From Candidatus Buchananbacteria bacterium CG10_big_fil_rev_8_21_14_0_10_42_9 (GTDB taxonomy: Bacteria; Patescibacteriota; Patescibacteriia; Buchananbacterales; 21-14-0-10-42-9), in NCBI GenBank assembly GCA_002773845.1, contig PEZZ01000034.1:1-43126 (forward strand): a stretch of 43,126 bases of DNA, given 5' to 3'. Both the position numbers and the translations under genes were made by a program. The notes below the pieces were generated by a model, which was given only the letters and a program-made list of their open reading frames with translations, made no database searches and was not told where the DNA came from. Below, piece by piece: positions 1,381 through 25,510 of the stretch (position 1 is the first letter of the stretch; the number at the start of each line of letters is the position of its first letter).

Positions 1381-1400
1381 CACTAAATTGTTAAGTTGCA
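1381..1400 (-). promoter_or_regulatory. boxA-like antitermination element in the 23S leader
   Basis: The minus strand reads TGCAACTTAACAATTTAGTG, close to the E. coli rrn boxA core TGCTCTTTAACAATTTA (three mismatches). It lies about 110 bases before the mature 23S 5' end, where NusB/NusE-dependent antitermination elements are normally found. A weaker boxA-like string occurs near 1488-1500. Function is inferred from similarity and position only. Confidence 0.55.
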
Positions 1401-1449
1401 GTCTTTAGCTTCCGGCCAGTGGCTTCAAAATGTTTGAGGACACTCGTCA

Positions 1450-1479
1450 GAAATTAAAAAAACCGCCTCGTAGCGGTTT
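1450..1479 (-). terminator. Terminator-like hairpin inside the 23S leader
   Basis: On the minus strand AAACCGC (1479-1473) pairs with GCGGTTT (1466-1460) around a six-base loop, followed by a T-rich tail (1460-1450). It lies between the only good promoter (1554-1582) and the 23S gene. It could stop readthrough from the upstream protein gene, or act as an attenuator that boxA-type antitermination must overcome. Confidence 0.6.
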
Positions 1480-1509
1480 ACCCCACAAGTTAAAAGTGCG
1501 CGGTCCCGC

Positions 1510-1542
1510 TTAGCTTCCGTTCATGTAAGTTAGTTTTTTCAT
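1510..1542 (-). CDS. Possible 10-residue leader peptide ahead of 23S rRNA
   Basis: The mini-ORF reads MKKLTYMNGS and then a TAA stop. It begins about 5 bases after the predicted transcription start (near 1547) of the consensus promoter at 1554-1582 and ends about 30 bases before the terminator-like hairpin at 1479-1450. An AGGAGA string lies just before the ATG but would be mostly upstream of, or at, the transcript start. A short ORF of this size can occur by chance. Coding is suggested only by its recurrence in the same layout (mini-ORF then hairpin) upstream of polA and the cupin gene. Confidence 0.25.
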   Translation of the reverse strand: MKKLTYMNGS

Positions 1543-1553
1543 ATATCTCCTGT

Positions 1554-1582
1554 ATTATAGGGTAATTCTAAAAGGCTGTCAA
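1554..1582 (-). promoter_or_regulatory. Consensus sigma-70 promoter of the 23S rRNA transcript
   Basis: TTGACA (1582-1577) and TATAAT (1559-1554) are separated by exactly 17 bases on the minus strand, a perfect consensus promoter. The predicted start is near 1547, giving a 5' leader of about 275 bases. The stretch 1272-1585 holds no other gene: it contains the promoter, a mini-ORF, a terminator-like hairpin, the boxA-like element, and a strong stem near 1350-1382 (GTCAT...ATGAC with GGGC/GCCC inside). The promoter suggests the unlinked 23S gene is transcribed strongly on its own. Confidence 0.9.
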
Positions 1583-1585
1583 GGA

Positions 1586-3037
1586 TTATCTGTTAGCAAG
1601 TTCTAAATAGGTTGTCCCCAACTTTTTAACCAAGGCCGACGTGCAATATGAAATATTTTGGCTAGTTTTAGCAAATTCCTGACATCTATACAATCCCCGC
1701 ACCCGAAAGGGAGGCAAAATATCAGGCGGCGTGTCTTGAACGCCGTAGTAAGCAAGTTTAGCCCCGTAGGATTTTGCCACCTTATAAATTTCTAAAAATG
1801 CATCCGCTTGATCAATTTCTTGCTCTGACTCGCCTTCAATTGAGTCATCCCACCATAAATGGTCAACGTAAATTGGTTTTCGCTCGAGCTCAACTAGGCT
1901 TTGTAAAATTGAATTTAAATCATCAGCACTATTTCCTAAATAAGAAACTTTCCAAGCGTCAAACATTTCGACAGCATTAAAATTTAATACTTGACTTAAA
2001 TAATCAATTTTTTCTTCCCTAGACTCGGCACTATCACTAATACTAAAACTTACGCTGCCAAAAATTATTTGCGCATCAGAGTTCGCCTCTTTAATCGCTT
2101 CGCTGGTGGCCTGTAAGGTAGTAAAATATTTTCCGGGCGAAAGAGCGCCCAAAGTAAACTGATTATAAGCATCCGGATCAGTCGCCACCTCAAAGTAATT
2201 TATCGCTTGAGTTAAGCCCGGCATATCCTCAACTTCATCGCCATCATAGCGCTCAACCAATTGCTGAACATAATTTTGGTAATCATCTATATCATAATTT
2301 AAAACTTGGCGGTTGTTGGAGTTAACCACGCTTGGCCGTGGCCACGGCGAAATCATCACAACTAATGGAATTTTATTTTGATTAAACTTTTGGACTATTT
2401 TATCCTGCAGTGAAAAATCATAAACTCCATTTTCGCTTTCGGCTAAAGTAAAATCAAAGCCGCCAACTTCGCTAGCACTTAAGCGGTAGTAGCTCGCGCC
2501 CGATTCTTTTATCAACGCCAAGCTGCGATTCAAATATTCATCAAATTCTTCACCGCTTAGAAATTGAAATAATTCCCGTGACGGCGCTACAATTCCGGCA
2601 ATGCCTAATTCTCCCTTGATAGTTCCTGGCCGAACTAATTTACACTCTCCCAGACAACATGTTCCGTCCCACGCCTCAACGCTTTCGCCATTACACAAAT
2701 CAGCTTCTAAACAAACCTTACCGCCAAGCTCAGCGCAATTTGATAACGGTGCTAATACCCCGGGCTGGCTGTCTGGCACTTTATTATTATTCGATGGCCC
2801 ATACTTTTGCCTAACTGACTTAACAATCTCACAAATTTTAGTATCGCATTTTTTGGCATAATAACTTTCGCGAACAACAAAAATTAAATAACCGCCCACG
2901 ATCGTTAAGGCGACTAAAAACAAAGAATTACCGACAATCCGCTTAAATCTAAAAATATTTCGCGGCCGAGATTTTGTCTGCCGCGGCTTAACACTGTCTA
3001 CAGACCAAGCATTTTGTTGGCGCTTACGCTTGCTCAT
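1586..3037 (-). CDS. Membrane-anchored glycoside-hydrolase-like protein
   Basis: The 483-residue protein has a basic N-terminus (1-32) and one hydrophobic segment (about 33-52) that should act as a signal anchor and place the rest outside the cell. Residues about 70-135 are cysteine-rich, with the spacing of a small disulfide module. Residues about 145-480 look like a TIM-barrel of the GH5/GH39 clan: the string VVMISPWPRPS and the strand YFEVATDPD, where a general acid Glu would be expected. At the position of the second catalytic Glu the sequence reads IYVDHLWWDD, without a clear Glu, so activity is doubtful. The 91-residue gene ends 15 bases upstream and the two are probably cotranscribed. 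The 23S promoter begins 4 bases after the stop. The family assignment is inferred from fold-like patterns only. Confidence 0.6.
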   Translation of the reverse strand: MSKRKRQQNAWSVDSVKPRQTKSRPRNIFRFKRIVGNSLFLVALTIVGGYLIFVVRESYYAKKCDTKICEIVKSVRQKYGPSNNNKVPDSQPGVLAPLSNCAELGGKVCLEADLCNGESVEAWDGTCCLGECKLVRPGTIKGELGIAGIVAPSRELFQFLSGEEFDEYLNRSLALIKESGASYYRLSASEVGGFDFTLAESENGVYDFSLQDKIVQKFNQNKIPLVVMISPWPRPSVVNSNNRQVLNYDIDDYQNYVQQLVERYDGDEVEDMPGLTQAINYFEVATDPDAYNQFTLGALSPGKYFTTLQATSEAIKEANSDAQIIFGSVSFSISDSAESREEKIDYLSQVLNFNAVEMFDAWKVSYLGNSADDLNSILQSLVELERKPIYVDHLWWDDSIEGESEQEIDQADAFLEIYKVAKSYGAKLAYYGVQDTPPDILPPFRVRGLYRCQEFAKTSQNISYCTSALVKKLGTTYLELANR

Positions 3038-3052
3038 TAAACTTAACCATTC

Positions 3053-3328
3053 TTATACTTCTTTGTTCCGCTGTTCGCCGGCTTTTTTAACAGCTTCACT
3101 CCAAGCCGCCAAAGCCTTGCCGTACTCTGAGCTAGCTCTATCAATTTGTTCTAGCAACCCTTCATTTTCCATTATTTCCATAGCCTTTGCGGGTTCATGT
3201 TGGGCTTGAATTTCTTTCACTTGAGCCATTAAATCGCTCAGCACCTGTTCTGCTATCATAGCTTCTTGGAATAGGCTATCCATATTTTGTTCTAACTCAG
3301 AGTTTGGTTTGTTGGCTCGCTCAATCAT
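3053..3328 (-). CDS. Small hypothetical coiled-coil protein
   Basis: The 91-residue protein is rich in Glu, Ala, Gln and Lys with heptad-like spacing of Leu/Ile/Met, suggesting one or two amphipathic helices (about 10-50 and 55-85). There is no signal peptide, membrane segment or recognisable motif. It lies between tRNA-Leu (17 bases upstream) and the membrane glycosidase-like gene (15 bases downstream), all on the minus strand, so it may be cotranscribed with both. I do not recognise the family. It is probably real, given the tight packing and the absence of any better ORF here. Confidence 0.65.
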   Translation of the reverse strand: MIERANKPNSELEQNMDSLFQEAMIAEQVLSDLMAQVKEIQAQHEPAKAMEIMENEGLLEQIDRASSEYGKALAAWSEAVKKAGEQRNKEV

Positions 3329-3345
3329 ACATTTATTTTATTAAT

Positions 3346-3430
3346 TGGTGCCGCGGGAGAGACTCGAACTCTCACACCCGAAGGCACTAGCTCCTAAGGC
3401 TAGCGTGTCTACCAATTTCACCACCGCGGC
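3346..3430 (-). tRNA. tRNA-Leu (anticodon UAG)
   Basis: The minus strand folds as a class II tRNA. The acceptor stem is GCCGCGG/CCGCGGC, the D-loop contains the Leu-type GAAATTGGTAGACACG, the anticodon stem CTAGC/GCTAG encloses the loop CTTAGGA (anticodon TAG), there is a long variable arm (TGCCTTCGGGTG), and the T-arm contains GTTCGAGTC. The discriminator is A and the terminal CCA is encoded. UAG reads CUN leucine codons. Confidence 0.95.
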
Positions 3431-3448
3431 ATGCCACACAACCCTCTA

Positions 3449-3477
3449 TTTGTAAACAAAAAAAGACATTGTGTCAA
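3449..3477 (-). promoter_or_regulatory. Promoter of tRNA-Leu
   Basis: TTGACA (3477-3472) and TACAAA (3454-3449) are 17 bases apart on the minus strand. The predicted start is near 3442, 12 bases before the tRNA 5' end. Confidence 0.8.
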
Positions 3478-3494
3478 TTGATAAACGTGACAAA

Positions 3495-3525
3495 GCGGCC
3501 GTACCCCCGAAGGGAAATCGGCCGC
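3495..3525 (-). terminator. Strong hairpin after the zinc-ribbon orphan gene
   Basis: GCGGCCG and CGGCCGC pair around an inner TCCC/GGGG stem with a TTCG-type loop. A smaller hairpin (GTGTC...GGACAC, near 3534-3552) precedes it. The T tail is poor (CTTTGTC), so this may be a processing or stability structure rather than an efficient terminator. Confidence 0.5.
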
Positions 3526-3555
3526 CCGCGAATTGTGTCCCCTCCGAGACACTTA

Positions 3556-4176
3556 TTATGGGCCGCCACTGCCCATGATGAGGTCAAACAAGTCGTGCGG
3601 GTCTGCCCCTTTAAGCTCCCGCACCTCTTCGTCTGGTATCGACGGAACGCTCTGTTCGTCTTGCTCTGTGAGGCGAAAAAGTTCTATCGCCTTGCCGGCC
3701 TCCTCTAGGCCGTAGAGATACTCCCTCGCCCTCTCCAGCACACCCCTGTGGATCAGGCTAGTGAAGTGTTCTATGGCTTCATCCCTGCCGGCATGCAGCA
3801 AGGCATCCTTGTCGATTGGCACCATTTCTCCATAGAACAGCAGAACCATCTCTCCTGACGGGATTTTTGTTGCCCACGTAATGCCCTCTGGGCTTTCGTC
3901 GGCGTAAAAAAAATCGCGCAGGCGTTTCTTTATCAGTACAGCAACTGCCCTTTCCAAGCAGTACAGTTTTTCTGCCGTACTTACATCTTCCGACAGTAAG
4001 ACTTTGCCGTCTACCGGCCACGCCAGACCGAGTAAAGCCAAGCGGGCTTCGCCACACTTGCAAGGAAAGAGTGCAAGGTTCATTGGTGGCAGTTGAGGCT
4101 GGTCCCAATACTCCCTGCAGCTTGGACATCTCGCATCTTCAGGGTTCCACTCTGGAACCAACATCGGGTCCTCCAT
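3556..4176 (-). CDS. Orphan zinc-ribbon-like protein (GC-rich cassette 1)
   Basis: The 206-residue protein of unknown family has an N-terminal cysteine pair CPSC (17-20) and a second pair CKC (39-41), which could form a zinc ribbon. The rest is mixed helix and strand, rich in Glu, Leu and Ala, and ends in a glycine tail. No catalytic motif is recognised. Codon use differs sharply from neighbouring core genes: GAG, CTC, GTC and GCC are frequent, while neighbours favour AAA, ATT and TTA. The start is fixed by a perfect SD, AGGAGGTGTTTCATGGA, which almost matches the start of the cassette gene at 5601. A promoter, the gene and a strong hairpin make a self-contained unit between tRNA-Leu and pgi. 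Likely acquired; function unknown. Confidence 0.75.
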   Translation of the reverse strand: MEDPMLVPEWNPEDARCPSCREYWDQPQLPPMNLALFPCKCGEARLALLGLAWPVDGKVLLSEDVSTAEKLYCLERAVAVLIKKRLRDFFYADESPEGITWATKIPSGEMVLLFYGEMVPIDKDALLHAGRDEAIEHFTSLIHRGVLERAREYLYGLEEAGKAIELFRLTEQDEQSVPSIPDEEVRELKGADPHDLFDLIMGSGGP

Positions 4177-4212
4177 GAAACACCTCCTTTAGGAGAGGAC
4201 ACTCCTATATTA

Positions 4213-5600: not shown

Positions 5601-5894
5601 ATGGACGGAACACTGATTATTCAATTTCAACGCTGGCGAAAGCGTTGGACCCGCACGCTCGTCTTGGCTGGCCGTGCAGCCGGGGCGAAAACCCACTGGC
5701 GGGCCACCATGGTCAAGCCGGGTGAAGCCTCTGAGGGTAGCCTTGCGCCTCCCTCTTACGAGATAACCCTTGAAGATGGCAACAACACCATACCGGCGCT
5801 GGTAACGTGGCCTAACCACGTGCCCACCCTAATCCGCACCGATACCGGCCAGCGGCTTGGCACGGTGAAAACCCTACGCACTGTCTACGCGTAG
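5601..5894 (+). CDS. Orphan protein, GC-rich cassette 2, first gene
   Basis: The 97-residue basic protein has no signal peptide or membrane segment. The N-terminal third is Arg- and Trp-rich (FQRWRKRWTR), and the remainder looks beta-rich, ending RTDTGQRLGTVKTLRTVYA. No family is recognised. The start is set by a perfect SD: AGGAGGTGTATCATGGA, one base different from the start region of the orphan gene at 4176. Codons are GC-ending, unlike neighbouring core genes. A second small gene follows after 12 bases with its own SD, so the two form a bicistron with a strong terminator. It is transcribed divergently from pgi; a possible promoter is TTGACT near 5540 with TATAAG 15 bases on. Function unknown; likely acquired. 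Confidence 0.7.
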   Translation: MDGTLIIQFQRWRKRWTRTLVLAGRAAGAKTHWRATMVKPGEASEGSLAPPSYEITLEDGNNTIPALVTWPNHVPTLIRTDTGQRLGTVKTLRTVYA

Positions 5895-5906
5895 AAGGAG
5901 GCATAT

Positions 5907-6143
5907 ATGCCGCCCGCGCTACAGGTTAGTCCGCTCGACGATGCGGCAGTTGGGGACGTGTTCTGTCTCCAGGTGGACGTGTTGGGGCAGGCGCACTGTC
6001 GCATCGAGGCAGTCACCGCTCGCACCCGGACGGTCTATGCAGTCGAACAAAGTGGGCGAAAAATCCGCCGCCACAAAGGTGGATGGTACTTCGACTATGG
6101 CCCTTATGGCTTGCTCGAAATCATCAGCGCGGAGAAGTGCTGA
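5907..6143 (+). CDS. Orphan protein, GC-rich cassette 2, second gene
   Basis: The 78-residue protein has no recognised family. The pattern VGDVFCLQVDV...HCRIEAVTARTRTVYAV is beta-rich, followed by a basic patch SGRKIRRHKGGW and an aromatic-glycine string YFDYGPYG, suggesting a small beta-barrel or SH3-like fold. It has two internal cysteines plus one at the C-terminus. Its start has a perfect SD (AAGGAGG, 6 bases before ATG). It is 12 bases downstream of the first cassette gene, with the same GC-rich codon use, and is followed at once by a strong terminator. The pairing of two tiny genes suggests they act together; no function can be assigned. Confidence 0.7.
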   Translation: MPPALQVSPLDDAAVGDVFCLQVDVLGQAHCRIEAVTARTRTVYAVEQSGRKIRRHKGGWYFDYGPYGLLEIISAEKC

Positions 6144-18865: not shown

Positions 18866-19615
18866 ATGTATCTTTATTTATACGACAGTCTCTTGAGTGA
18901 AAAAAAATATCAGCGGCAACTTATTAAAATGGAAATGCAACTGACAGATCTTGGCATTGGCGGGAAAATTAGTCGTCTGTCGCCCTTAAAAAACCTCAAA
19001 CAACTAATTGAAGAAGAGGTTCGCGTCGGCGTTAAAACTGTGGTAGCGGTCGGCAACGACAAAACCTTATTCCAAGTCATCAACGCCATCGTTGGCAGGC
19101 CAGTAGTGCTTGGTATTGTTCCGTTTGGGCCAAACAACACAATTGCTCATGACCTAGGCATTAACTCTGTAGAAGATGCAACCAAAACTATTTCCACTAG
19201 AATTATTCAAAAAATTGATTTGGGCAAAATTAATAATGATTATTTTGTTTCTCAAGCTACCATTTCCGACGGCCAGGCAGTAATTGAATTTGACGATAAA
19301 TTTGCTGTTTCTACCGAGCATGCCGGCAGTAAAATTAATGTCTGCAATTTACGCCCGGCCCATGTAGCCGCCGGCCAAAACCATTTCAACCCGCAAGATG
19401 GTTATTTAGACTTACTCGTAGAAACCGCCAGCCGCAAAGGCATGTTTAGAACCGAATTTGCTAAAAGCATTTTTCCGTTCAAAAGAATTTTTATCCGCGG
19501 CCCTAAAACCGCCTCTATTACCGCTGATGGCGGAAAAATTTTTAAAACTCCAGTCAAAATTGAAGCCGCTCCCCAAAAAATAAAAATGATCGTCAGTAAA
19601 AAAAGAGATTTTTAA
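18866..19615 (+). CDS. Diacylglycerol-kinase-like protein with altered catalytic loop
   Basis: The 249-residue protein has the DAGK catalytic fold. A strand-loop VVAVGNDKTLFQVINAI (about 60-76) stands where lipid kinases have GGDGTxNEVVN, and LGIVPFGPNNTIAHDLGI (about 82-99) where they have LGIIPxGTGNDFARxLGI. The catalytic GGDGT is thus degenerate (VGNDK) and GTGN is GPNN, so kinase activity is doubtful. The C-terminal beta-sandwich is present, with HFNPQDGYLDLLV and a final PVKIEAAPQKIKMIVSKK. It is second in the bactofilin operon. The last ten codons and stop are duplicated 1.84 kb downstream, see the insertion element. Confidence 0.75.
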   Translation: MYLYLYDSLLSEKKYQRQLIKMEMQLTDLGIGGKISRLSPLKNLKQLIEEEVRVGVKTVVAVGNDKTLFQVINAIVGRPVVLGIVPFGPNNTIAHDLGINSVEDATKTISTRIIQKIDLGKINNDYFVSQATISDGQAVIEFDDKFAVSTEHAGSKINVCNLRPAHVAAGQNHFNPQDGYLDLLVETASRKGMFRTEFAKSIFPFKRIFIRGPKTASITADGGKIFKTPVKIEAAPQKIKMIVSKKRDF

Positions 19616-19617
19616 TT
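19583..19617 (+). repeat. Direct repeat, left copy (end of the lipid-kinase-like gene)
   Basis: These 35 bases match 21425-21459 at 33 positions. They encode the final ten residues (K-M-I-V-S-K-K-R-D-F) and stop of the intact gene. The differences are ATG/ATA (Met/Ile) and AGT/AGC (both Ser), so both copies keep the coding sense. Confidence 0.95.
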
Positions 19618-20394
19618 TTTCTTTGGGGACACTCCTTGCTCCCAAGCTAAATTAAACAAACCTTTAAGTAAGTTAACTAGGGCCAAGCTTTCTATCATTA
19701 CGCCCATAATATTTGGTTGTTGGTGCAATGCTAATACAACCTTATTTTCATATACGTTAATCTCACCCCTAAACTCTTTTATACCTGGCAACTGCTCTGC
19801 CTTGATCCATTTATAATGAGTGTAAGTAAAAGATCCGCGATAATCTTTCATCCATTCTCGTCCTTGAGGCGTATCTAGCAGTAGCATACGTTCATGAATT
19901 TTTCTCCGACTCCGCTCTTTATTATAGTCCTTACCCCATTGCCTAAATTCAGGCATGTTCCAGCCTTCAATGTCAGCAATAGATAAAACTTCATCTTTTG
20001 TCTCCAACGATTCGCTATAAATCGCTTTTAACCCCTCAATGCCTTCTTGATACCTAACAATTGGTTTATCAATTAATTTATATAAAGAAACCAGCTCCGG
20101 CAGTTCTTGTTCAACTCGTTCTAATCTCTTCTCCCATTGGTTTTTTTTGTTTTGTACAAATTGGACTAAGCGTCGAGGGTGCTCAGCGCTATACCGTATC
20201 TTTTTGCCTTCGCTAGAAACTTTATTAACCAAACCATAGACACTTAACTGTTCTAATATTTGATAGCCAAAAGTTCTAGTAATGCCGGCTTTTTTAGTTG
20301 CCTGACTAACTGTTGAAGGCCCAAGCTCTAACAGCGCCTGATATATCTTAGCTTCATTATCATCCAGACCTGAATCGCTTACTAAATTTTTCAT
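19612..20394 (-). CDS. TrmB-family transcriptional regulator
   Basis: The 260-residue protein has an N-terminal winged helix (about 1-70): GLDDNEAKIYQALLELGPSTVSQATKKAGITRTFGYQILEQL is a typical TrmB helix-turn-helix. A coiled linker follows (about 85-115), then an effector-like domain (about 120-260). TrmB proteins often sense sugars and control sugar uptake or metabolism, mostly in archaea and some bacteria; the effector here is unknown. ATG 20394 is chosen over an upstream ATG because the domain begins there and the promoter lies just upstream. The stop codon lies inside the left direct repeat, so the gene runs right up to the end of the insertion element. Codon use is AT-rich, like the core genes. 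Confidence 0.8.
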   Translation of the reverse strand: MKNLVSDSGLDDNEAKIYQALLELGPSTVSQATKKAGITRTFGYQILEQLSVYGLVNKVSSEGKKIRYSAEHPRRLVQFVQNKKNQWEKRLERVEQELPELVSLYKLIDKPIVRYQEGIEGLKAIYSESLETKDEVLSIADIEGWNMPEFRQWGKDYNKERSRRKIHERMLLLDTPQGREWMKDYRGSFTYTHYKWIKAEQLPGIKEFRGEINVYENKVVLALHQQPNIMGVMIESLALVNLLKGLFNLAWEQGVSPKKN

Positions 20395-20430
20395 AACTAC
20401 TTTAATGTATAAATAAAAACGCCTAAGCTT

Positions 20431-20459
20431 TTTGTAGCACAATCCTTAATTTGTGTCAA
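20431..20459 (-). promoter_or_regulatory. Promoter of the TrmB-like regulator
   Basis: TTGACA (20459-20454) and TACAAA (20436-20431) are 17 bases apart on the minus strand. The predicted start is near 20424, about 30 bases before the ATG. The divergent cassette promoter is less clear; CATAAT at 20579-20584 is a candidate -10. Confidence 0.75.
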
Positions 20460-20630
20460 TAATTACTTACACTTTATTTTTATTATAAAAATATTGGCTT
20501 ATTTTAAATAAATTCTCTTATAAATAATGAATCATCATATTTACACTTTAATAAATTTTAATAAAAATAACCTGTCATCATAATGGTGTGGTGACATACG
20601 CATCTAGATTTAGAGAAGGAGGTGGACTGG

Positions 20631-20729
20631 GTGGCCAAAAAAAATGCAGCAAAGAAAAACTCTCAAGAGTATTGCGTCGGCGACTTCGTCAAAGTAACTC
20701 GTCAAGATGTAAGTGAAAAAAAGAGGTGA
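20631..20729 (+). CDS. Orphan small protein, cassette 4, first gene
   Basis: The 32-residue protein starts at GTG with a perfect SD (AAGGAGGTG, about 8 bases upstream). The first half is Lys/Ala/Asn-rich (KKNAAKKN); the second half reads EYCVGDFVKVTRQDV, a small beta-like stretch. Its TGA stop overlaps the GTG of the next gene (GTGA), which predicts coupled translation. It may be the N-terminal part of a protein split by a frameshift, because the next frame lacks an SD of its own. No function is recognised. Confidence 0.5.
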   Translation: MAKKNAAKKNSQEYCVGDFVKVTRQDVSEKKR

Positions 20730-21241
20730 CGGCATGCGTCTTGGCAATCTACTTTGAGGGTGTACTGCTACGTCTGTGCCCCGTCGGCACAAAAGATTTC
20801 TTCTACAGAGATGTAAGGCATGGCCCCGTGGAAGTTGTCAAAAGGATCGGAGCCGACCTTGATAAGCTCGCAGGGGAGATTGGGTTTACCTTGGCAGTAA
20901 TGGCCTGCCAAAACGACCTCCCTGAAGGGTTGCTCGAATCCTTAAGCCCAACACGGTTGGCTGACATTGCGTCGGCTTGCTCCGGCTACGAAGGATTCGA
21001 TCAACCAATGAAGGATGCCATCGTCCCCCTGCTGGAGAAGAAAGGTGTCTACGAAGCTGTAAAAAAGGAAGCAAATAAACAGCTTACCGCCAAACATGTC
21101 AAAGAAGTCTGCAAGTTCGGCTGTGATGACCCAAGCAAAACATGTAGCTTCTTGACCGCTGGCCCAGGTGACGTGAGTTGCGCCAAGGGCACAGAGCTTG
21201 AGGGAGTAATTCACAACCAGAGCGGTTCATGGAACAGATGA
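20726..21241 (+). CDS. Orphan protein, cassette 4, second gene
   Basis: The 171-residue protein has no recognised family. It overlaps the previous stop by 4 bases and starts at GTG. Residues about 30-120 look helical and polar; the C-terminal part holds several cysteines (VCKFGCDDPSKTCSFL, and SCAKG further on) that could bind metal or form disulfides. There is no signal peptide or membrane segment. Codon use is GC-richer than the neighbouring TrmB-like gene. Its TGA stop overlaps the ATG of the third gene (ATGA). Part of the insertion element; function unknown. Confidence 0.65.
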   Translation: MTACVLAIYFEGVLLRLCPVGTKDFFYRDVRHGPVEVVKRIGADLDKLAGEIGFTLAVMACQNDLPEGLLESLSPTRLADIASACSGYEGFDQPMKDAIVPLLEKKGVYEAVKKEANKQLTAKHVKEVCKFGCDDPSKTCSFLTAGPGDVSCAKGTELEGVIHNQSGSWNR

Positions 21242-21372
21242 CCGCCATGGGGGACGGTGATGGTTGCGTCGGCAGGAAAGGATCTCTAAGCTTATACAAG
21301 CTAACGGAGGGCCGCACCAAAAAAACAGACAAAAAGCCAGCTAAGAAAAAAGCTGCAAAAAAGCGGTCTTAA
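21238..21372 (+). CDS. Orphan lysine-rich small protein, cassette 4, third gene
   Basis: The 44-residue protein begins at an ATG overlapping the previous stop by 4 bases (ATGA). It starts MTAMGDGDGCVGRKGSLSLY and ends in a Lys/Ala tail (KKTDKKPAKKKAAKKRS) typical of nucleic-acid-binding tails. The three cassette ORFs each sit in a different frame, each one base back from the last, so they could be coupled genes or one gene with two -1 shifts. A terminator follows 20 bases later. Confidence 0.5.
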   Translation: MTAMGDGDGCVGRKGSLSLYKLTEGRTKKTDKKPAKKKAAKKRS

Positions 21373-21392
21373 AACATGCGCAATAACGCAAG

Positions 21393-21420
21393 AGAGAGCC
21401 TGACCAGCTCTCTTTATCTT
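21393..21420 (+). terminator. Intrinsic terminator of cassette 4
   Basis: AGAGAGC (21393-21399) pairs with GCTCTCT (21407-21413), followed by TTATCTTTTG. Confidence 0.8.
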
Positions 21421-21424
21421 TTGT

Positions 21425-21459
21425 AAAATAATCGTCAGCAAAAAAAGAGATTTTTAATT
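21425..21459 (+). repeat. Direct repeat, right copy (displaced gene end)
   Basis: Matches 19583-19617 at 33 of 35 positions and still reads K-I-I-V-S-K-K-R-D-F-stop, but is attached to no gene. It marks the right edge of the 1.84-kb insertion. Confidence 0.95.
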
Positions 21460-21477
21460 AATGATAAAAAATAAAAG

Positions 21478-21500
21478 ACCCTCAGCCGGGGGTTTTTATT
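21478..21500 (+). terminator. Bidirectional terminator, probably the original end of the lipid-kinase-like operon
   Basis: ACCCTC (21478-21483) pairs with GGGGGT (21488-21493), then TTTTATTTC; on the minus strand the tail is CTTTTATTTTTT. It now also ends the minus-strand SET-domain gene. Confidence 0.75.
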
Positions 21501-21562: not shown

Positions 21563-22075
21563 TTAGCTTATTCTATCCCTTAAGTAAGGGGAATAATACT
21601 CCTTGTATCTATTTTGAACTTCCTTGTTCTTCCAATCCTGAGAAGAAATTACTTTTCTGCAAAACGAGGAACCACAATTACAGTTAAAATTCTCCTCCGC
21701 CGTTTCACAAAAAGCATAATCAAAAACAAGTTCTTCTTTGGGCTCTATGTCTCTTATTGCCACAAGGGTGATGGAGTTTGAAAAACCAACATTTGGTTCA
21801 CAGGAGTGATTAAAAACTCCAAAGCGCTCAAGCTCTTCGCGAGTTGTTGGAACTATAAAAAAATCCTCATCAATTTGTATACCTACCTGAGTCATGATCG
21901 ATCTATACTCCTCAATTTCATCTCTATGAACAATAACACCGCCCAGCACACCCACGACCTCTCCTTTTAAAATTTTATCCTTAGCGAAAACCCCAACTCC
22001 CTGTATAGGGGAAGGACGTGCCTCTGATTGCGGATTCAGCCATCTATGTGCCCACTTTTTGTGTAAATCGTGCAT
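21563..22075 (-). CDS. SET-domain lysine methyltransferase-like protein
   Basis: SET enzymes transfer methyl groups from SAM to lysines. The 170-residue protein has the core motifs: GVGVFAKDKILKGEVV near the N-terminus (about 26-41), FGVFNHSCEPNVGFS (about 86-100; the NHSCxPN signature), AIRDIEPKEELVFDYAF (about 106-122; the ELxFDY motif), and a post-SET cysteine cluster NCNCGSSFCRK (about 130-140) that can bind zinc with the signature Cys. All catalytic motifs look intact. It is free-standing on the minus strand between the PRC-barrel gene and the terminator at 21478. SET proteins in bacteria are often thought to be acquired from eukaryotes; its substrate is unknown. Confidence 0.9.
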   Translation of the reverse strand: MHDLHKKWAHRWLNPQSEARPSPIQGVGVFAKDKILKGEVVGVLGGVIVHRDEIEEYRSIMTQVGIQIDEDFFIVPTTREELERFGVFNHSCEPNVGFSNSITLVAIRDIEPKEELVFDYAFCETAEENFNCNCGSSFCRKVISSQDWKNKEVQNRYKEYYSPYLRDRIS

Positions 22076-24127: not shown

Positions 24128-25510
24128 ATGACCATGAATAAAAAACAACTCTGGCAAGCCACCCTGGGCGAGCTGGAGCTAGTGCTCAGTAAGGCTAATT
24201 TTATCACCTGGTTTAAAAATACATTTATCACCGCTTACGACGGCGGCCGGCTTACTGTCGCAGTGCCCAATACCTTTACTAAAGCATGGCTTGAGAAAAA
24301 ATATCACATGGTTATTATCAGGGCGCTTCAAAAAATCACTAACAATGAGGTACGAGAAGTGGTTTATAAAGTTGAAACCCAAAAACCAGAATTCAGCGAA
24401 AACACCATGCCTCGACAAGACGGCGACGCAGGGGTGGCGACGGTTGAAGCTTCCTCTGCCACCGCTACTGACACCGCCACCGTTATTGAACAGGACGGAT
24501 TAAATCCTCGGTTTAACTTTTCTGCCTTTGTGGTTGGTAAATCCAATGAACTGGCTTGCGCCGCTTGCCAATCAATTGCTGAACGCCCGGGCGGTTCTTA
24601 TAATCCCTTATTCTTATACGGCGGCGTGGGGCTTGGTAAAACTCACTTAATGCAAGCTATCGGCAACGCTTTAAAAACGCAAAGTCCCAAGCGAAAAATC
24701 TTATACGTCACTTGCGAAAAATTTACCAATGATTTTATTCAATCAGTTAAAACTAACCCCAACAAATTTAAAGACTTATACCGCTCTGTGGATGTGCTTT
24801 TAATTGATGACATCCAATTCTTAGCCGGCAAAGACGGCACCCAAGAAGCCTTCTTTTACACTTTTAATGAACTCCACCAAAACAACAAACAAATTGTAAT
24901 GTCGTCAGACCGCCCCCCCAAAGCCATACCCGGACTAGAAAATAGGCTAGTTTCACGCTTTGAGATGGGCATGATGGCTGATGTCAACATCCCCGACCTT
25001 GAAACTCGTATCGCGATTTTAGAAACCAAATGCCAAGAAAGAAATTTTAATTTGTCTAACGAGGTAATCAACTTTTTAGCCTCTAACATTCAAAATAATA
25101 TTCGCGAACTAGAAGGTGCGTTAAACAAACTAATGGCCCACCAACAGCTATATAAGAAAAAAATAGATAAAGAAAGCGCAAAAACTATTTTAGCTAGCCT
25201 TACCGCCGCTCCAGCCAAAAAAACTGTCACGCCCAAGCAAATTATTAATACGGTATCTGATTTTTACGACATTGAAATAGATGATTTATTGGGTGATTGC
25301 CGCAAAAAAAACTTAGCCGTCCCACGCCAAATTGTCATGTTTTTAATGCGCGAAGAAATTAACACCTCCTACCCGTCGATCGGACAATTTGTTGGCAATC
25401 GTGACCACACCACCGCCATGCACGCTTATTCCAAAATATCCAAAGCGGTTAATGAGGATGAAAAAATAAAACAAGACATCACTTTTATCCGCGAACGTCT
25501 TTATAGTTAA
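24128..25510 (+). CDS. dnaA: Chromosomal replication initiator DnaA
   Basis: DnaA binds origin boxes and melts DNA to start replication. Of 460 residues, domain I is at about 1-80, a flexible Ala/Thr-rich domain II follows (about 90-125), the AAA+ ATPase domain III has Walker A GGVGLGKTH (near 164) and Walker B LLIDDIQFLAG (near 220), and the C-terminal DNA-binding domain IV carries VGNRDHTTAMHAYSKI, the DnaA signature. No SD precedes it; ATG 24128 is the first start, with a second ATG two codons later. It is upstream of dnaN, with the presumed origin between them. Confidence 0.97.
   Translation: MTMNKKQLWQATLGELELVLSKANFITWFKNTFITAYDGGRLTVAVPNTFTKAWLEKKYHMVIIRALQKITNNEVREVVYKVETQKPEFSENTMPRQDGDAGVATVEASSATATDTATVIEQDGLNPRFNFSAFVVGKSNELACAACQSIAERPGGSYNPLFLYGGVGLGKTHLMQAIGNALKTQSPKRKILYVTCEKFTNDFIQSVKTNPNKFKDLYRSVDVLLIDDIQFLAGKDGTQEAFFYTFNELHQNNKQIVMSSDRPPKAIPGLENRLVSRFEMGMMADVNIPDLETRIAILETKCQERNFNLSNEVINFLASNIQNNIRELEGALNKLMAHQQLYKKKIDKESAKTILASLTAAPAKKTVTPKQIINTVSDFYDIEIDDLLGDCRKKNLAVPRQIVMFLMREEINTSYPSIGQFVGNRDHTTAMHAYSKISKAVNEDEKIKQDITFIRERLYS

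Follow-up and report, generated by a model that had tools for sequence, protein, structure and literature searches.

What brought a block of 1.84 kb to the end of a lipid-kinase-like gene, with that end repeated on its far side? The question is raised by a 43,126-nucleotide window, the whole stretch of DNA that was analysed, from a member of the Buchananbacterales, and it is taken up here through the repeats, the cargo between them, the same locus in relatives, and similar structures at other genes.

The duplicated gene end

The target gene (18866–19615, plus strand) matches PF00781 (DAGK_cat, E=3.2e-11) and is syntenic in same-order relatives. Two direct repeats of 35 bp on the plus strand, a proximal copy at 19583–19617 and a distal copy at 21425–21459, lie 1842 bp apart from start to start and agree at 33 of 35 positions. 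Both encode the last ten kinase codons and the stop, the proximal copy reading KMIVSKKRDF* and the distal copy KIIVSKKRDF* in frame; the two differences, ATG/ATA and AGT/AGC, amount to a Met/Ile exchange and a silent change at Ser. Among direct repeats within 6 kb of each other, this pair is the highest-scoring of the window (score 29 at +1/−2), the next real pair reaching 15 and the maximum over 20 Markov shuffles being 16. Across the 1.09-Mb genome, the 27-bp core with at most three mismatches occurs at just these two sites, and the 35-bp repeat is absent from the viral contigs searched.

Terminator-like hairpins flank the distal copy, both on the plus strand. One (21391–21415, z −2.9) ends the cassette just upstream of the copy, and the other (21474–21497, z −2.7) begins about 15 bp beyond it. 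The latter probably terminated the kinase gene originally, and a relative (L022) has a terminator at the equivalent position. A preliminary description of the locus, which had reported the two repeats with their 33 identities, their encoding of the last ten codons and stop, differences that keep coding sense, and a likely original terminator just past the distal copy, is thus borne out.

The cargo

The repeats bracket a TrmB-like transcriptional regulator and a GC-rich cassette, as had also been described. The regulator (19612–20442, minus strand; ATG start more likely at about 20394) is recognized by PF01978 (E=2.6e-12). Its stop codon, at 19612–19614, falls within the proximal repeat on the opposite strand, so that the left border of the insert is the very end of the TrmB gene. 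TrmB relatives occur elsewhere in same-order genomes at about 21–34% identity, none of them at the kinase locus. A second TrmB-like gene (L069, 10136–10879) has its last 92 bp recurring downstream, inverted and with few differences.

The cassette, with a GC content of 50% vs 42%, lies on the plus strand and is divergent from TrmB across a 188-bp AT-rich gap. A divergent gene pair across an AT-rich gap is the usual layout for a regulator and its target operon, and TrmB and the cassette may be related in this way. The three ORFs previously listed for the cassette are present, but the last two look like a single broken gene. ORF1 (20631–20729, 32 aa) is preceded by a strong Shine-Dalgarno sequence, GGAGG, and overlaps ORF2 at its end, where there is an A AAA AAG run; this run (within 20700–20745) looks slippery, and the frame would join ORF2 by a −1 shift. 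ORF2 (20726–21241, 171 aa) has a C-terminal Cys-containing domain with homologues in the class, and ORF3 (21238–21372, 44 aa) is probably its continuation past a frameshift. The end of ORF2 together with ORF3 matches Cys-containing proteins of 73–78 aa in three other genomes of the class, and since these homologues (L028–L030) read through the break, ORF2 and ORF3 look like one gene with a probable frameshift at about 21222. Given this apparent frameshift, the cassette may be undergoing decay.

ORF2 matched nothing in Pfam or PHROG. Phage records held no match to the cassette, relatives of the cassette and kinase were sought in a genome-contig collection and relatives of the cassette and TrmB in a viral-contig collection, both with none found, and for TrmB plasmid records gave only distant matches. 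Two further intergenic orphan cassettes with strong Shine-Dalgarno sites lie in the window at 3556–4176 (minus strand, GC 54%) and 5601–6143 (plus strand, GC 60%), the latter followed by a terminator hairpin of its own; at neither were repeats of a flanking gene end seen. At L056, an identical 43-bp terminator-like hairpin follows each of two orphan genes (2050–2092 and 2767–2809).

The kinase locus in same-order relatives

The relatives compared belong to the same order and share about 50% protein identity, the genus and family being singletons in the collection. The kinase was found in eleven same-order genomes and is whole in ten, in every one of which it lies beside PRC or yidC. The conserved order is bactofilin–kinase–(PRC)–yidC–yidD–rnpA–dnaA, with L019 cut before dnaA and L025 without PRC. 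Between kinase and PRC, none of the ten has TrmB, the present cassette or the SET-domain gene described below. The kinase of L022 leads into a terminator, and the convergent PRC gene there stops no more than about 60 bp from the kinase stop codon; in several other relatives the kinase–PRC gap is occupied by different orphan ORFs. Kinase-end repeats were sought in the relatives' gaps and none was found. As all ten relatives are without the insert and several have other orphans in its place, the 1.84-kb insert is lineage-specific and the kinase–PRC gap is a variable locus, the identity of about 50% being too low to place the exact junction. The exact empty site called for in the preliminary description, with its junction in the 35-bp repeat, was not seen among these order-level relatives. 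A SET-domain gene beyond the distal repeat (21563–22075, minus strand) is likewise absent from the relatives' kinase–PRC gap, and the secA–maf array of a relative (L108) includes a 40% identical homologue among its cargo.

The same scar at other genes

Gene ends and starts were scanned against their own neighbourhoods in 967 of the 1090 kb of this genome, in 945 kb of same-order genomes and in 400 kb of other class members. Filtered raw matches in this genome and those of the order numbered 17 at ends or starts against 4 in a gene-middle control, and curation by eye took out paralogues, dispersed repeats and spurious ORFs. In this genome, convincing cases are the ends of the kinase, uvrC (a 28-bp duplication), purH (36 bp, exact, with purH split from purM) and metG (29/30), and two gene starts, one with RelB/YafQ-like toxin–antitoxin cargo (L161) and one a further duplicated start (L070). 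In relatives they are the end of a miaB-like gene (45/52, DUF559 cargo) and the starts of uvrC (40/41) and uvrA (26/27). Cargo extends from a dispersed palindrome of 112 bp to the RelB/YafQ-like pair and Rce1-like, DUF5674 and DUF559 genes. By eye, no motif common to the duplicated sequences is evident.

Other matches were set aside by eye. Those at L061 (about 3579–4186) and L066 (15911–16434) are gene-end repeat pairs whose differences fall where one copy has A, a pattern seen in diversity-generating retroelements, and look like variable/template repeats. L074, L151 and L158 appear to be tandem paralogues, L148 and the match at L065-uvrB dispersed palindromes, and L083 an internal repeat; L099 was also put aside. 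At L076 (7600–8700), two leader-peptide-like sequences, one Thr/Ile-rich and one Ile-rich, flank an orphan cassette together with similar attenuator-like hairpins, and the two leader-like copies were set aside as regulatory.

Divergence of the copies and start-to-end joins

The insert at uvrC opens with another plausible UvrC tail, HRVLRSKGMR*; in the distal copy the tail is HRLLRS*. The UvrC ends of relatives are consistent with both, yet five codons differ synonymously between the two tails and one conservatively. For nine copy pairs from eight genes, picked after inspection from those alignable in frame and with the maf start counted twice, 23 of 41 changed codons are synonymous against 6.2 expected under random change, and none of 5000 simulated runs reached 23. 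The predominance of synonymous differences in this pooled set suggests that the copies mostly diverged as working gene parts, that is, probably in different genomes. The preliminary proposal that the insert brought its own gene end agrees with the pooled result, but the kinase pair alone is not significant (P=0.11), since it holds only two differences.

At two loci in relatives, the copied starts and ends lie side by side. In L187, the uvrA end is followed in turn by a cassette, a copy of the uvrC start (40/41), a degenerate copy of the uvrA end (51/68) 5 bp further along, a second cassette and uvrC. In L108, the secA–maf interval holds four genes, among them CYTH and SET genes, separated by maf-start copies and secA-end-like pieces; this four-gene array occupies 1391–3618 on the minus strand (relative G003). 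The maf-start copies score 35 and 25 against a shuffle maximum of 16. A maf-start copy adjoins secA-end-like sequence, and the case for the secA-end copy, whose score of 15 is within the shuffle level (maximum 16), depends on where it lies and on its translation, KKFKKCHKK*. Joins of this kind are the trace to be expected had fragments of the same locus been end-joined before integration.

Proposed import of locus-matched DNA

The explanation that we favour, with little more than even confidence, is that the 1.84-kb block is locus-matched DNA imported from a relative, as opposed to a dedicated mobile element. A related genome would supply a fragment of this locus, with kinase end, TrmB and orphan cassette; the fragment would enter the cell, and its far end would be joined to a trimmed kinase end. 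Recombination with the resident kinase would then take place through the short common gene end, either by one crossover with a re-closed circle or by one-sided homology, and would yield the gene, a donor-type gene end, the cargo, the resident gene end and the original terminator in that order. We infer several parts of this scheme: circularisation, the single crossover, transformation as the route of entry and dependence on RecA. The different orphan genes that fill the kinase–PRC gap of several relatives support import. Against it, the shared homology of 28–52 bp is short for RecA, and the identical purH copies fit plain target duplication equally well; no donor with a kinase–TrmB–cassette arrangement was found. 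The genome has a ComEC domain, but comEC appears to be split by a GIY-YIG gene, which makes competence uncertain. At this locus (L202; G000:C7, near 24186–24962), the competence domain and a metallo-hydrolase-like part lie in different frames, with the GIY-YIG nuclease gene between them.

The proposed steps resemble processes described elsewhere. In Escherichia coli given a linearised fragment, gene-end duplications made up 56 of 60 products and were attributed to trimmed, re-circularised DNA with one-sided homology and single-crossover integration (PMC3240628). That route, known from experiments and not from this lineage, and homology-facilitated illegitimate recombination more generally share with the present case the one-sided homology at a gene end and the duplicated end flanking the insert; classical illegitimate recombination products delete resident DNA, whereas here it is kept. 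For the stacked immunity genes of Vibrio, homology-facilitated illegitimate recombination has been put forward as well (PMC5361080). In the orphan immunity arrays of the Vibrio cholerae T6SS, each further addition matched to the locus leaves a displaced gene 3' end between the stacked genes, much as in the secA–maf interval of L108; those arrays displace an effector gene (PMC5361080), whereas here the targeted housekeeping gene is intact. The insert is classed as a variant of these kinds of recombination and of insertion with long target duplication, and is not assigned to any integrase family.

Alternative explanations

Strict insertion with a long target duplication, in which repair of a staggered break entered by the cargo copies 28–44 bp of target on both sides and no donor end is involved, is unlikely but the most serious of the alternatives. 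The cargo does lie between long direct repeats of the target, and the 0–9% divergence of copies at ends, starts and intergenic sites fits events of different ages; the purH copies are identical. The pattern has been described for restriction-modification genes of Helicobacter pylori (Nobusato 2000, as cited in PMC1643837 and PMC3031569), where host direct repeats of variable length likewise surround cargo in the absence of a transposase or integrase. That system differs in its cargo, which here comprises a regulator, orphan cassettes, a toxin–antitoxin pair, and CAAX-protease-like and nuclease-like genes; the copies here often differ in a coding-conserving way. Neither the second UvrC-like tail in the uvrC insert, nor the excess of synonymous differences, nor the start/end joins of L187 and L108 is explained by this process, and both the tail and the codon result count against it as the sole process.

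That an integrase acting in trans inserted a non-autonomous element site-specifically at the 3' end of the kinase gene is quite improbable. The precise gene-end duplication that restores the gene, the compactness of the element and the distal position of the original terminator all recall integrase elements that use att sites at the 3' ends of genes, restoring the gene end and leaving a distal copy. However, no integrase lies in the element, as had been noted before, and none matching PF00589 was found in this 96%-complete genome, whereas 14 of 14 control genomes were positive. The sole PF00239 recombinase is of the large serine type and lies in another contig (L054, 40–1617), where its reading frame apparently runs into tRNA-like sequence, GTRTLDLLRDRQA; large serine recombinases are not known to leave 35-bp identical flanks. 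Copies or relatives do not reuse the site, which is present just twice in the genome, and the other scars use unrelated sequences. Since gene starts, unrelated genes and unrelated cargo bear the same scar, the dedicated 3'-end att site suggested earlier is not supported, and the non-autonomous mobile carrier proposed with it gives way to imported DNA as the favoured reading.

It is a long shot that a recombination system new to science moves orphan cassettes in this order, using flanking core-gene ends as its sites; if it did, it would build integron-like arrays such as that at secA–maf in L108. Tandem duplication of the gene end and the genes downstream of it, with the second gene set deleted afterwards, is a known source of flanking repeats (PMC2869330) and is formally compatible with the end–cassette–start–end–cassette–start order of L187. 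It is nevertheless very unlikely, as the two L187 cassettes are not evidently alike, and the distal copies adjoin the likely original terminator (kinase) and the purM start (purH), so that in each case the second deletion must have been exact. An assembly artefact merging two strain variants of the locus is scarcely credible even for a genome in 50 contigs, as the copies differ, the locus has no run of N, and similar structures occur in several independent assemblies.

Significance

How small-genome bacteria such as this one come by their many orphan genes without integrases is little understood. Scanning gene ends and starts against their surroundings is applicable to any set of genomes. Each duplicated end or start can be read as the fossil of one import, recording the place of entry and which end was joined, and the scars point to a donor that was probably a relative with the cargo at the same locus.
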